Assembly: GCF_000176915.2 (NCBI RefSeq)
Contig: NC_014844.1
Location: forward strand, 3,286,001-3,350,000
Direction of reading: 5' to 3'
DNA from: Pseudodesulfovibrio aespoeensis Aspo-2
GTDB taxonomy: Bacteria > Desulfobacterota > Desulfovibrionia > Desulfovibrionales > Desulfovibrionaceae
DNA: 64,000 nt
The notes under the pieces are model-generated. The model ran no database searches, had not been told where the DNA came from, and was given only the letters and a program-made list of their open reading frames with translations. Made by a program: the position numbers and the translations under genes. Every line of letters begins with the position of its first letter. The first letter of the stretch is position 1. Shown here in pieces: positions 28,043 to 45,862 of this stretch.

Positions 28043-29050
28043 TCAGGCCAGCTGGGCCTTGGACAGGGTGGCGATGAGCCGCTTGAGCAGCTCGGTGTCA
28101 TAGGCCCCGCGCTGGGACTTGATCCGGGTCAGGGCCTCGAACGGAGTCAGCGCCTTGCGACCCGCTGCGCCGCGCACCAGACCGTCGTATTCGTTGCACA
28201 GGGCGATGACCTTGACATAGGAGGGGAGCATGGCCCCGGACGCGCCCGACGGGTAGCCCATGCCGTTCTCGCGCTCGTGGTGGAAGAGGATGCACTGCAA
28301 CGTCTCCTGGGGCAGGGGCAGGGACGAGCATATGCCCACGCCCAAGGCGGGATGGGAGCGGATCATGTCCAGCTCGGCCTGGCTCAGGGTGTCGCGCCGC
28401 CGGGTGAAGAGCTCGCCCGGCAGCTCCAGCTTGCCGATGTCATGGAGCATGGCCCCCATGCCCACGGCCACCAGCATGTCCGCGTCGTCCCTGACATAGG
28501 ACGAGAGCACGCTGACTGTCAGGACCATGACCCCGATGCCGTGCTTGTAGAGTTCGCTGCCCTCGGCGATGAACCTCGACAGCTCCTTGAGGGCATCGTC
28601 TCGCGCCAGGAACCTGAGGCTGCTGGCGATGAGCGAGCGGATCCGGGCAAAGCCTCGCTTGTCCATGGATTTTGGCAGGCTGGTTTCAAAGGCTTCACGG
28701 GCCAGCGAGACCGTGGCGTCGTTCCAGGCCCTGGCCCGCTCGCGCACCGGGATGGTCTCGTCGTCCAGGAGTTCGAGCAGGTTGTCGTGCAGGTAGTCCG
28801 CGTAGCGGCGGTAGTCCTCGGCGCGCACGTAAAGGTGGTCCACGCCGAGCCGGGAGAGCCGCTCCTTGTGCTCGTCCGTGAACAACTCGCCCTTCTCAGC
28901 ATAGAGAACATAGGTCTCATCCTGCTTGAGAAACAGGGAGAAGCCGCCCACCCTGGATGGTATGACCATGTACGGGGAGACCTTGAACAGGCTGCCCGTC
29001 TTCTGCTTTCCGGTATCATTGCCGTTTCCGGCGGGTGCGGTGGTTCCCAT
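28043..29050 (-). CDS. HD-GYP domain c-di-GMP phosphodiesterase
   Basis: 335 aa from the ATG preceded by AGGAGGGAG; an upstream in-frame start at 29101 lies beyond the leader. The first ~130 residues are a DUF3391-like regulatory part. The HD motif LHDIGKLELP and the GYP motif HHERENGMGYPSG define an HD-GYP phosphodiesterase that hydrolyses c-di-GMP, lowering the signal and favouring motility. A cyclic-di-GMP-I riboswitch lies in its 5' leader, giving likely feedback control. No membrane helix is seen. Confidence 0.92.
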   Translation of the reverse strand: MGTTAPAGNGNDTGKQKTGSLFKVSPYMVIPSRVGGFSLFLKQDETYVLYAEKGELFTDEHKERLSRLGVDHLYVRAEDYRRYADYLHDNLLELLDDETIPVRERARAWNDATVSLAREAFETSLPKSMDKRGFARIRSLIASSLRFLARDDALKELSRFIAEGSELYKHGIGVMVLTVSVLSSYVRDDADMLVAVGMGAMLHDIGKLELPGELFTRRRDTLSQAELDMIRSHPALGVGICSSLPLPQETLQCILFHHERENGMGYPSGASGAMLPSYVKVIALCNEYDGLVRGAAGRKALTPFEALTRIKSQRGAYDTELLKRLIATLSKAQLA

Positions 29051-29128
29051 GACTCCCTCCTGGGTCGCCGGGGAAATCGCCTGGACACCGGGAAGCCGCA
29101 TAGAAGCGGCCCGCCGGCGGGTGATGCT

Positions 29129-29253
29129 CTGGCAACCCGGCTGTCTTTGCGTACCCCTTCGCTCCCATGTCCCGGCACCGATGCCGGACAGAGACCGAAG
29201 CGGGCAAAGACCCGTGGCTTTCCGTCCCCGTCTCGCGACGGGTTTGGCTTGTC
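29129..29253 (-). promoter_or_regulatory. cyclic-di-GMP-I (GEMM) riboswitch
   Basis: On the minus strand the leader reads AAGCCAAACC, a GNRA-capped stem (CGTC GCGA GACG), then GGGACGGAAAGCCACGGG, a long extended helix in which GTCTTTG pairs with CAAAGAC, and finally ACAGCCGGGTTGCC. These are the hallmarks of the GEMM/c-di-GMP-I aptamer (GGGACGCAAAGCC and AGCCGGGTTACC in the known family). A CCCGCCGGCGGG hairpin after it may be the switch. It precedes an HD-GYP gene. Confidence 0.85.
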
Positions 29254-29262
29254 TTACCCATG

Positions 29263-39294: not shown

Positions 39295-40062
39295 CTATCT
39301 CCTGGGCTTGAGGTTCGGGGTGGCATGAAAAAGCATCAGCTCGATCCAGTCCATGGCGAATTCCAGGGCCGTCTCCTCGTCCTCCAGTATCGCCTTGTGG
39401 CGGTTTTCGTCCAGGTCCAGACGGTCGAAGAGGTGCGTCTGAATGATGAACCGCTGGAACTCGTCGAGCTTGTACAGGGCCAGGGTGGCCAGATGGCCCA
39501 TCTTCTCGGGCACCGGGGCCCCGGTCTGGCGGATGCGGGCCAGGATGTTCATGTAGCGGTCGTTGCTGGCCGTGTAGGCCACGAACCCCTGATCCTGCTT
39601 CCACGACGCGCCGGTCCACTCGTCCTTTTCGTTGAAGCCGAGACAGTGATCCTCCCGGACGATGAAGAACTGCTCGCTCACCCCGCCAGCGCCGTCAGGC
39701 CGGGTGGCGCGGCCCAGGGGATACATGCGGCAGGCGCCGGGCCTGTCGGCGTAGACCGAGCATCCCTGTTCGCGGACAAAGGGGCAGGCGCGGGCCTCGT
39801 TGTCGGTCATGCGCAGGCGGAATTCGGGAAAGTTGGTCTCCGGGGCCATGTGCATGGTGGTGTGGCTGCGCAGGAACTCGACACTGCCCATGTTCAGGCT
39901 GCGGCGCAGGCGCAGTATGTCGTAGGGGGTGAGCACCAGGTTCAGGTCGCTGCAACAGGCGTTGAAGCAGGCGACGCCGGGGCGACATTTGAAATGGTAT
40001 GTCTTTCCTTCTTCCAGCTCAGGCAGGCTGGCCAGGAATTCCTTGGTCTGATCGTCGCTCAT
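39295..40062 (-). CDS. YkgJ-type cysteine-cluster protein
   Basis: 255 aa. The cysteine pattern CRPGVACFNACC, then CPFVREQGCSVYADRPGACRMYP, defines the YkgJ/UPF0153 family, likely binding a metal or Fe-S cluster. AGGAGACATC lies before the ATG; the much longer open frame upstream is read-through. It is followed three bases later by rfaE2. Reaction unknown. Confidence 0.85.
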   Translation of the reverse strand: MSDDQTKEFLASLPELEEGKTYHFKCRPGVACFNACCSDLNLVLTPYDILRLRRSLNMGSVEFLRSHTTMHMAPETNFPEFRLRMTDNEARACPFVREQGCSVYADRPGACRMYPLGRATRPDGAGGVSEQFFIVREDHCLGFNEKDEWTGASWKQDQGFVAYTASNDRYMNILARIRQTGAPVPEKMGHLATLALYKLDEFQRFIIQTHLFDRLDLDENRHKAILEDEETALEFAMDWIELMLFHATPNLKPRR

Positions 40063-40129: not shown

Positions 40130-40242
40130 GGGTGTCCTAGCACGGTGTCGGCCTGAAGGCAAAGTGTGCAAAGGCATGGCCCGCGAAGACGGCTTTGCAT
40201 TCGCCCGGCTCTCTGATAGGACGGGGAGGCAAAGGAGGGCAC

Positions 40243-41289
40243 ATGCCGAAGCTGAAGCTTGTGAGCATGGTCAAAGCGGCCGGCTGAGCCGCCAAGATCG
40301 CTCCGGGGGACCTGGAGCAGGCACTGTCGGGCATGTATGCCCGCAAGGACGACCGCGTGTTGGCCGGAGGCCCCGGCGACAACGAGGACGCTGTGGTGTT
40401 GTCCTTTCCCCCTGGCAAGGCCCTGGTCCAGACCGTGGACTTCTTCACCCCGGTGGTCAACGATCCCTACCGGTTTGGCCGCATTGCCGCTGCCAACGCC
40501 CTGTCCGATATCTATGCCATGGGCGGCACGCCCTTTTCGACCATGAACATCGTCTGCTTTCCCATGAAAAAACTCTCGGGCGCGGTCTTGCGCGAGGTCT
40601 TGCGCGGCGGACGCGACACGGTGGAGGAGGCCGGGGCCATCCCCTCGGGCGGCCACAGCGTGGAGGACGACGAGATCAAGTACGGGCTGGCCGTGTCCGG
40701 CGTGGTCGATCCCTCCCGGTTCGCCTCCAACCGGGGCGTGCGTCCGGGCGACCGGCTCATCCTGACCAAGCCCATCGGCACCGGCGTGCTGGCCACGGCC
40801 ATCAAGGGCGAGATGCCCGGCTGCGACGCGATGGAGGAGACCCTGTTCGAGGTGTGCGGGCGGCTCAACCGGGCTGGGGGCGAGGTCATCGCCGCCCTGG
40901 GCCTGACCGGGGCCACGGACATCACCGGCTTTGGCCTGGGCGGCCACCTGATCGAGCTGGCCGACGCCAGCCGGGTGACCATCGACCTGCACATGGAGTC
41001 TGTGCCGCTCATTCCCGGCGCGCTGGAGCTGGCGGCCATGGGCATGCTCCCGGCAGGGTCCATCTGCAACCGCACCCACTATCTGCGGCGCACCACTGTG
41101 GCCCAGGGCCTCGACCCGGTTCACCTGGACATGATGTTCGACGCCCAGACCTCGGGCGGGCTGGTGCTGGCCGTGCCGCCGGACGCGTTCGACCGGGCAG
41201 TCGCCATGCTTGAGGCCGCCGGAGACCTGGCCGCCCCCATCGGCACGGCCAGGGCCAGGAGCGACAACACCCCCCTGACCATTCTCTGA
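40243..41289 (+). CDS. selD: selenide, water dikinase (selenocysteine-containing)
   Basis: 348 aa if the in-frame TGA at 40285-40287 is read as selenocysteine. The start ATG has AAGGAGGGCAC upstream. The context KAAG-U-AAKIAP with a Lys three residues later is the SelD catalytic loop, where U or C is the active residue. The body (GGPGDNEDAVVLSF, GRIAAANALSDIYAMGG, SGGHSVEDDEIKYGLAV, ending in DNTPLTIL) is intact. A stem GCTCC/GGAGC at 40300-40318 follows the UGA at SECIS distance. SelD makes selenophosphate from selenide and ATP. selA, selB and selC are not in this window. Confidence 0.93.
40300..40318 (+). promoter_or_regulatory. selD: candidate bacterial SECIS hairpin in selD
   Basis: The 5-bp stem GCTCC/GGAGC with a GGGGGACCT loop begins 12 bases after the UGA. 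The G-rich apical loop and distance match bacterial SECIS elements bound by SelB. Structure not computed. Confidence 0.6.
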
Positions 41290-41296
41290 TCTCTGC

Positions 41297-44200
41297 TCAC
41301 CGACCGGATTCGAGCAGCACCCGCTCCAGTTCGTCCTGCAATTCCGGCAGATCAAAGGGCTTGGCCACATAGCCCTGCATGCCCGCGTCGAGGAACCGCT
41401 TGCGGTCGCCCTCCATGGCGTGGGCGGTCAGGGCGATGATCGGGATGTCGAGGCCCAGGGTGTCGCGGATGGCGCGGGTGGTCTCCACCCCGTCCAGACC
41501 GGGCATCTGGATGTCCATGAGAATGCAGTCAAAGGCAGCGGTGGCCAGTATCTCGATGGCCTCCTCGCCGCTCTCGGCGCAGGCGGCCTCGTGGCCGAGC
41601 TTGCCGAGCAGCCGCTGGGCCACGGCGCGGTTGGTGCGCTCGTCTTCGACCACAAGGATCGACAGCGGCCTGAACACTCCGTTTTGGCCGCTGACAGCCG
41701 GGGTGAAGGCGGCGTGATCGACGCGCCGGGCAGCCACGGTAAAGACCACGGTGGTGCCCGCCCCAAGCTCGCTGTCCACCGCGATGGTGCCACCCATGAG
41801 CGCCACCAGCCGCCGCACGATGCCAAGGCCCAGGCCCGTGCCCTGATACTTGCGGGTAAAGGAGCCGTCCACCTGGGTGAAGGGGTCGAATATCTGGTCC
41901 ATCTTGTCGTCCGGGATGCCGATGCCGGTGTCGGAAACCGAGAAGAAAAGCTGCGCCCGGCCATCGGGCATGGGGTGCGCCAGGGGGTATGCCTCCACCA
42001 GCACCGAGCCGGATTCCGTGAACTTGGTGGCATTGCCCACCAGGTTGAAGAGGATCTGGCGCAGGCGGACCTTGTCGGCCAGGAAGTGGCGCGGCAGGGT
42101 CTTGTCCATGACCAGCGCCACCTCGATGCCGCGCATCCGGGCCTGATGCCGGAAAACCGCGACCACGGATTCCGCCACCTCGCCCAGGTCGAGTTCCTGG
42201 TCGTCGAGTTCGAGCTTGCCCGACTCGATCTTTGAAATGTCGAGGATGTCGTTGAGAATCTGGAGCAGGCTGCGCCCGGAGCTGAGGGCTATCTCCAGGA
42301 ATTCCCGCTGCTCGCCGCCCAGGATGGTGAGCTGGAGCAGCTGGAGCATGCCCAGCAGCCCGTTGAGCGGCGTGCGTATCTCGTGACTCATGTTGGCGAG
42401 AAACTCGTTCTTGGCCAGGCTGGCCGCCTCGGCCTTGGCCATGGCCCGCTTGAGCTCCTGCTCCATGACTTTGAGGTCCGTGATGTCCGTGGCCATGTGC
42501 ATGTGCACCAGCCGCCCCTCAAGCCACTCGATGGCCCGATCGTGGTTGAGATACCAGCGGCCCGTGATCTGGCTGTGCCACTCCCGGACCAGGGTGCCGA
42601 CCGGCGCGCCGCGCCCGTTGAGCAGGGCGGGCTTGGGGCAGACCTGGCACTGCCGGGACTCGCCCCGAAGGATTTCGTGACACAGGGAATCCTGGCCGCT
42701 GGTGCCGTAGGTCTCCTGAATGTGGGCGTTCATGAACAGCACCTCATGGCTGTCCAGCTCCGAGACGTAGATGTTGGCGTCGATGCCGTCCAGGATGGTC
42801 AGCAGCCGCTCGTGGGACTGGGCCAGTTCCCTGGCCGCCTGCCGCTCCTGGGTCACGTCGCGGGTGGAGCCAAAGACGCGTCTGAGCCTGCCGCGCCCGT
42901 CCGTCTCCGGGATGGCCACGCCCACCAGCACCCCCTGGGAGCCATCGTCCCGGAGGCAGCGGAACTCGACTTCAACTGGCCGCATGTCTCGAAGCAGGCT
43001 TGTCCACGCCTCGACGAGCCGGGGGGTGTCGCCCGAATGAATGTGCCGATTGAGGATGTGCCCGATGTCCGGGGCCGACCCGTCCGGCTCCAGGCCGAAG
43101 AGGCGGAACTGCCCGTCCGTCCAGTGGTTCGCGCCGGTATCGAGGTCGTGCTCCCAGCCGCCGGTCAGGCTGATGCGCTGCACCTCGTTGAGCAGTTCGC
43201 GGCTCCAGCGCAGGGCCTGCTCGGCCTGGTGCCGCTCGGTCAGGTCGTAGGCGTAGACAAAGAGATACTCCTTGCCGCCGTAGACCTTGTAGTGGCTGAC
43301 GATCTCCACGGGCAGTTCGCGCCCGTCGCGGCAACGGTGGACCGTTTCGAACCGCCTGATGTCCTCAAGCCGCCGCGCGTTCCAGTATTCGGCCCAGGTA
43401 TCGGGTGAGAACAAGGGGCAGATATCCGATACGGTCATGGCCAGCAGGTCGTCCTGCCCGTAGCCGAGGCTGGAGCAACCATGGTCGTTGACGTAGACGT
43501 ACCGCCCGCTCCTGTCGATCCAGTAGATGCTGACCGGGGCCATGTCCACGGAGAACTGGGTCAGCCGGAGCGCCTCCTCCACCCGCTTGCGCCCGGTGAT
43601 GTCGATGATGCTGCCCTCGAAGAGTTCCGGCTCGTTGCCCAGCCCCCGGCTCAGCCGGCTGTTGATGGACACCCAAAGGGTGCCGCCCCCCTTGCGCCGG
43701 ATGAGAATCTCGAACTGGCGGACCTCACCGTGCTGGATCAAGGCTTGGACCAACCTGTCGCGGTCCTTGGGATCGTAATAGAATTGCGTGGTGATGTCGG
43801 TGATGGCGTCCATGAACTCCTGGGGCGAATCGTAGCCCGTGAGCCGGACCAAGGCCGGATTGACGCTGACGAACCGCCCCTGCGGGGTGGACTGGTACAG
43901 CCCCTCCACTGAATTTTCAAAGAGATTGCGGTAGTTGCGCTCGCTCCTGACCAGCTCGGCCTCGGCCCGCTTGCGCCCCGATATGTCCGCGGCCATGGCC
44001 AGGACACCCTGGTAGCGCCCGTCGTCGCCCAGAATCGGCGAGGCCGAGACCAAAGCCCAGACCGAGCTGCCGTCCTTGCACCGGTAGCGCTGTTCGAACT
44101 GGTCCGAGAGCCCCTGCCGCCTGCGCACCAGGTGTTCTTCGAGCCGGGGAATGTCCTCAGGGTAGAGAAGCGCGGACACGGGTTTGCCCAGCAGCTCGTA

Positions 44201-45862
44201 GACCGCGTAGCCGAGCATCCGGCACAGCACCTTGTTGGCGAACCGGATGTTCCCGTTGGGACCGATGGAGATGATGCCCTCGTTGGCCGTCTCCACTATG
44301 CGCCGGTAGCGCGCCTCGCTCTCGCGCAGGCTGCGCTCGACCATCTTGGCCTCGGTGATGTCGGCGATCATGACAAAGGCTCCGGCGTATTCCCCGACAT
44401 CGGTCCTGATGGGCGTGGCCGAGACACGGCCCCAGGTCCTTGTCCCGTCCCGGCGCACGAACCGCTGCTCGTAGCGCACCCCGCCGCTCTTGATGGCCTG
44501 GGCGCGCCGGACGTATTCGGAATGCTCATCCGGCGGCATCAGGTCCGGCAGGGTCGCGCCGATGATGTCCTCGAAGTCGTGGCCCATAAAATCAACCATG
44601 GTCTGGTTGGCAAAGGCAATGCGGCCATCGGCGTCCATGCTCAGGATGCCCTCGTTGGCTGTCTCCAACATGCGCCGGTAGCGCGCCTCGCTCTCTCGCA
44701 AGGCCTCCTCCGCCCTGGTCCTCTCGGTCGTGTCCTTGGCAAAGATAGCCACCCCGTCAACCTCTCCGTCCTGGCCGAACACGGGGTAAAGGGTGAGATC
44801 GAAGTGCCTTCCCTTGAGATGGCCCTTGCGCGACACCGGCCTGCCCGTCTGAGCCACCTGCCTGAAGGACTCTCGCCAACTCTCGACCCTTTCCTGAGGC
44901 AGATGGTCGAACAGGCTGAGCCCGGCAGCTTCTTCAGGGTCAAGATCAAGCCGTGCGGCCATATTCCCATTGATGATGCTGATGGTGCCATCCGTGCCAT
45001 AGAGGCCGACATCCTCGACAGTGGCATCAAGAAGGGCGCGCAGGGCGCGTTCGTTGCGGCGCAGCCTTTGCTCCACTTCCCTGCGGTCGCCGATAGACCG
45101 AGTGGAGCCGATGAACCCGACGCACGCCCCGGCATGGTCCAGCAGGGGGCGGGCCACAGCCTCCACCCACACGGCGCTTCCGTCTGCGTGTTGCACCTCA
45201 AGCTCCATGCGGGCCAATGGGCTTCGTTCTCCCCTGGCAACGGCGCGTCTGACGCCGTCAAGAGCCTCAAGGACCAGGGGCAGAGTCTGCGGGGTCACGA
45301 ACTGGTCGACGCACCGCCCGACCACGTCTTCCGGCACTATGCCGCGAAGTCTGCCCACCGAGGGGCTGACATAGGTGTACCGAAGGTCGTTATCCACAGT
45401 CCAGACGACATCCTCGGTGTTTTCGGCCACCAGCCGGTGTATCCGGGCGTCCCCGGCCACGGTCCGGGCGTCGGCCTCCCCCTGGGGATACAGGAAGTGG
45501 GCAAGGCTGAACCCGGCCCCGGCTCCGTCAGGGCGACGAATCTCGGCCCGGACCTCGACGGCGCAACCGTCCCTGCCCAGCATGGTCAGACAAACCGGGC
45601 TTTCCGGGCTGGAGCCGTCGGCTGCCCACACCTGGGGCGGACCAGCCAGAAAGTCGTCAAGGGGTCGGCCCGTGGCCTCTTCCCGGCTGAAGCCGAGCAG
45701 GGCGAGCCAGGCCCGGTTGACGGCCACGATCCGGCCTTGGTCATCCAGACAGTGGCACGGCAGCGGCACCAGGTCGAAATACGGCCCGGCAGGCCCATGC
45801 GCCGCCGGGTCGGTCGCTCGGCCATGGTTCGCCGCCTCTGATTTCGTGCCTTTCCTGCCCAT
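41297..45862 (-). CDS. nine-PAS hybrid histidine kinase with receiver
   Basis: 1521 aa, no membrane helix, so cytoplasmic. About nine PAS/PAC repeats occupy residues ~25-1140 (two nearly identical starts, [18 protein letters not shown] and [18 protein letters not shown], show recent internal duplication). Then HisKA with [15 protein letters not shown] (His near 1160), HATPase with [24 protein letters not shown] and GTGLGLGIV, and a receiver near residues 1390-1515 with Asp in [12 protein letters not shown]. It needs a phosphotransfer partner, such as an Hpt protein. No response regulator is adjacent. Confidence 0.93.

Follow-up and report, generated by a model that had tools for sequence, protein, structure and literature searches.

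The formate dehydrogenase alpha subunit (FdhA) and SelD (selenide, water dikinase) are named as the most widespread bacterial selenoproteins in a passage of a 2006 paper, whose Table 3 lists SelD as a selenoprotein for Desulfovibrio vulgaris and D. desulfuricans (PMC1794560). An alignment of SelD proteins with selenocysteine (Sec) and with Cys has been described in part of a second paper (PMC2398784), and the evolution of SelD enzymes is treated in part of a third (PMC4561486). For the bacterial SECIS hairpin (bSECIS), the rules given in an excerpt of a 2026 review are an apical loop of 3-9 nt, an upper stem of 4-16 bp, at least one G among the first two loop positions, a distance of 16-37 nt between the UGA and the apical loop, and a minimum free energy of at most -7.5 kcal/mol (PMC13188914).

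We analyzed a stretch of 64,000 nucleotides from the chromosome of Pseudodesulfovibrio aespoeensis Aspo-2 (the window) that contains a selD gene with an in-frame TGA at codon 15 (Table 1). From sequence comparison, we judge it nearly certain (probability about 0.98) that this UGA is decoded as Sec by the ordinary bacterial pathway. As compared by listing alone, in Table 3 of the 2006 paper, the D. vulgaris and D. desulfuricans proteins are the same enzyme from the same bacterial group (PMC1794560), and Desulfovibrionaceae relatives with the motif GUAAK are among the SelD loci that we aligned. A sequence-only reading had described this selD as Sec-containing, and our results support it in both coordinates and interpretation.

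Table 1. Features of the selD locus, in window positions
Feature	Position	Strand	Details	Basis
selD: selenide, water dikinase	40243..41289	+	348 aa, Sec at position 15, stop TGA 41287-41289	
Shine-Dalgarno-like AGGAGG	40233..40238	+	4 bases 5′ of ATG 40243	read from sequence
In-frame TGA, read as selenocysteine	40285..40287	+	codon 15, motif AAG-U-AAK	alignment with relatives and solved SelD chains
Downstream ATG, start for an ORF caller halting at TGA	40333..40335	+	318 aa, active site lost	ORF list
Bacterial SECIS hairpin (predicted)	40300..40318	+	8-bp stem 40300-40307/40311-40318, apical loop GGA 40308-40310	fold and covariation

The start codon of selD has the good ribosome site that had been claimed for it, and the frame indeed meets the TGA and continues for 333 codons to the real stop. 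Translated with the UGA as Sec, the product was assigned to the SelD family (TIGR00476 equivalog, 331.9 bits against a curated cut-off of 125), and AIRS and AIRS_C domains were found in it. As the genome (3,629,109 bases in a single contig) gave one match to the SelD protein, no intact second copy was seen. Scans around selD found no sigma-70-like promoter and no terminator-like site on the + strand; the sole terminator-like site was on the minus strand (40130-40116). Divergent from selD is a gene for a Cys-rich 255-aa protein (39295-40062, minus strand) for which NCBIfam gave no match at E 0.001, and convergent with it is a 1521-aa ORF (41297-45862, minus strand) that, by reading, encodes a multi-PAS hybrid histidine kinase. 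Elsewhere in the window, a c-di-GMP-I riboswitch (29128-29258, minus strand; RF01051, 60.4 bits) lies just 5′ of an ORF on the same strand (28043-29101) whose product is similar to HDIG-type c-di-GMP phosphodiesterases, with scores below cut-offs.

Comparison with solved SelD chains placed the TGA at the catalytic Cys/Sec site, as the sequence-only reading had proposed. The window motif AAGUAAK aligned with SGCAAK of 2yye/2zod and, in the same column, AGUAAK aligned with AGCGCK of 3u0o; both entries carry the molecule name Selenide, water dikinase, and 3u0o and 2yye were the best solved matches. All of these conform to C/U-x-x-K, which we take to be the catalytic Cys or Sec of SelD, two residues and then Lys. 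The crystallized chain of 2yye/2zod, presumably the Aquifex aeolicus SelD with its Sec changed to Cys, has Cys where the window SelD has Sec. The same is true of 3u0o, which we take to be Escherichia coli SelD with its essential Cys17; a second Cys two residues on in that chain is Ala in the window protein.

The alignment of relatives comprised 95 loci, of which one was the window copy, 67 came from a family sample and 27 were taken from named records. Among the last are Pseudodesulfovibrio, Nitratidesulfovibrio and Solidesulfovibrio, as well as more distant Deltaproteobacteria, a Clostridium, Actinomycetota, a KSB1 and a Spirochaetia bacterium. Of the 79 genomes in the family sample, 69 matched the SelD protein, including one with a fragment (G014) and one with a weak match that is not a SelD N-terminus (G035). 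Among 41 match rows that had no locus, 38 were fetched; the G014 fragment and one weak second match each in G026 and G037 were omitted. We excluded the G035 locus, which was out of register with 25% identity, leaving 94 SelD loci in which genomes present in both sets are counted twice. The column of the window Sec was TGA in 93 of these and TGC in one. Dropping nine rows that duplicated another row across the whole gene or across the 78 bases surrounding the UGA left 85 distinct rows, with TGA in 84 and TGC in one. The GUAAK motif was present in 69 of the 85, and no row had a further in-frame stop over the aligned part of up to 299 codons after the Sec column. We regard the conservation of TGA across these aligned loci as decisive for the reality of the Sec codon.

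The window hairpin, GCUCCGGG-GGA-CCUGGAGC, has one G-U pair in its stem and starts 12 bases past the UGA, and the GCTCC/GGAGC stem noted earlier at this spacing proved to be the lower part of the 8-bp stem. When compared with the excerpted bSECIS rules, the stem of 8 bp, the loop of 3 nt with G at its first two positions, the 20 nt between the UGA and the apical loop and the fold of the 42 nt after the UGA at -15.7 kcal/mol all fell within the ranges (PMC13188914). Thus, the likeness to known bacterial SECIS elements in the sequence-only reading stood, but the stability of the single fold was not significant: z was -0.14 against dinucleotide shuffles, of which 81 of 200 were equally stable, and 43 of 300 synonymous shuffles were equally stable, a mild excess only. 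Taken alone, the window hairpin does not exceed chance, and a tendency of the conserved residues themselves to favor pairing may be the reason. No SECIS match reached the gathering score when the window was scanned with Rfam.

Structure after the UGA was evident when relatives were considered together. Over the 85 distinct rows, the mean z against synonymous shuffles was -1.81 for the 14 codons that follow the UGA, with 36 rows in the lowest 5%, while at 13 other places along selD the mean z ranged from -0.43 to +0.13, with 1 to 14 rows in the lowest 5%. Of the 14 places tested, the one after the UGA therefore stands far above the rest in its excess of structure over synonymous shuffles. In 79 distinct aligned sequences, 88.1% of stem cells were paired (78.6% in shuffles), 48 stem cells were changed on both sides (shuffled mean 16.9) and the covariation score was 0.264 (0.133 in shuffles); none of 500 shuffles reached any of these values. 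Versions of the stem slid along the alignment, over which the true stem has the advantage that its structure was derived from the window sequence, gave at most 52.2% pairing, 24 cells changed on both sides and a covariation score of 0.108. On one further measure the covariation is weak: 5 of 8 pairs had changes on both sides, and 44 of 500 shuffles and several slid versions did at least as well. A simple bSECIS rule, lenient in accepting any sub-stretch and run without a control, was passed by 82 of the 85 rows; the distant rows L062, L066 and L111 carry the TGA and failed it. Covariation over the 79 sequences thus supports the predicted pairing of the window hairpin.

The outer pair of the stem is formed by the first bases of the fifth and eleventh codons after the UGA (U+5 and U+11). 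It is G-C in 39 of the 85 rows, encoding Ala with Gln, Arg or His in 38 and Gly with His in one, and C-G in 15, encoding Pro with Glu, Val, Asp, Gly or Ala; pairing is non-standard in 26. From these counts, which ignore kinship, the odds look even that the SECIS stem dictates the two residues, in which case the two amino acids would be coupled through RNA pairing and not through protein contact.

The Sec machinery was found in the Aspo-2 chromosome. Matches to selA (600 bits) and selB (372.1 bits) were over cut-off and approximately 2 kb apart. A tRNA-Sec, the selC product, scored 82.3 bits, over cut-off, with RF01852, and ARAGORN gave it the anticodon TCA. Since the RF01852 model matched 14 of 14 control genomes, 5 of them over cut-off, the tRNA-Sec call rests on ARAGORN too. 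All three genes that the sequence-only reading had named as a check are therefore present. The same genome encodes two formate dehydrogenase paralogues (L123 and L125; C1:178846-181860 and C1:3037428-3040463) whose corresponding codons differ: FdhA has a TGA within ARIUHSATV, and at this site the paralogue has Cys, within ARICHSSTV. Thus, use of UGA for Sec at other places in the genome is very probable, and formate dehydrogenase is predicted to be its second selenoprotein. Selenouridine synthase (selU/ybbB, TIGR03167) had no match in this genome.

If the UGA were a true stop, the gene would start at the ATG at 40333 and encode an enzyme without the N-terminal active-site segment. The mechanical ORF list does give the shorter ORF, which opens at the next in-frame ATG it holds, 90 bases late and with the active site gone, just as had been predicted for a caller that halts at UGA. 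However, the family match opens at residue 6, ahead of the UGA, and both the TGA and the N-terminus are conserved in 93 of the 94 loci. Relatives keep the protein sequence to either side of the UGA; in the 14 codons before it, the six close relatives L019, L020, L021, L049, L050 and L051 differ from the window by 0, 3, 4, 2, 3 and 3 synonymous and 0, 1, 1, 1, 5 and 1 non-synonymous changes, respectively. We consider a start at 40333 extremely improbable. Scarcely any weight, in our estimate, falls on readthrough with another amino acid (Trp, Cys or a near-cognate), a sequencing error or a pseudogene. We found nothing in favor of such readings, and TGA occupies the same codon across independent genomes, a covarying hairpin follows, selA, selB and tRNA-Sec are present, and the one SelD match in the genome leaves no intact second copy in view. 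Decoding of the UGA as Sec is the reading that we retain.

A natural control came from the one Cys-containing SelD among the 94 loci (L100, genome G008), whose codon is TGC. We sought selA and selB in the Aspo-2 genome and in 14 of the 78 other sample genomes, those with no SelD match or an odd one. In G008, selA had no match, selB had none over cut-off (best 192.2 bits) and selU had no match; with 150 of 599 tRNA-Sec candidates scored, the best, just over the gathering score, was tRNA-Ser by ARAGORN. The G008 SelD is thus an apparent orphan Cys-SelD. The hairpin after its TGC folded at -22.8 kcal/mol, and 1 of 300 synonymous shuffles was equally stable. It resembles the SECIS remnants after Cys codons that are reported in a passage of the 2006 paper (PMC1794560). 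As a single genome, G008 is an illustration and not a statistic.

Some sampled genomes had Sec machinery and no SelD match over cut-off. In G047 (1.7 Mb, 4 contigs, 99% complete), selA and selB scored over their cut-offs and a tRNA-Sec carried the anticodon TCA; the best TIGR00476 match was ThiL, and formate dehydrogenase alpha had no match there. Sec machinery without SelD, as in G047, would be unusual. G010 and G063, which are fragmented (330 and 200 contigs), also had selA and selB over cut-off, and G010 had two formate dehydrogenase genes, each of which contains a single TGA. For these two assemblies, a missing stretch is the likeliest explanation for the absence of SelD.

For the window selD, we infer from established knowledge that SelB carrying Sec-tRNA(Sec) would bind the hairpin just past the UGA and bring Sec to the ribosome. 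Sec15 would then be the active-site residue of an enzyme that turns selenide and ATP into selenophosphate. Because the genome yielded no other SelD, this enzyme would provide selenium for its own Sec and for other selenoproteins, such as formate dehydrogenase.

Sec-containing SelD is long known and ordinary in the Desulfovibrio group; with the Desulfovibrio proteins already in print in the tabulated list (PMC1794560), the finding in the window is right and ordinary. Its main weight is for annotation, as a caller that takes the UGA as a stop drops the SelD active site. For the biology of the organism, it is an instance of a loop of self-dependence that is already known: making Sec requires an enzyme that would itself contain Sec.
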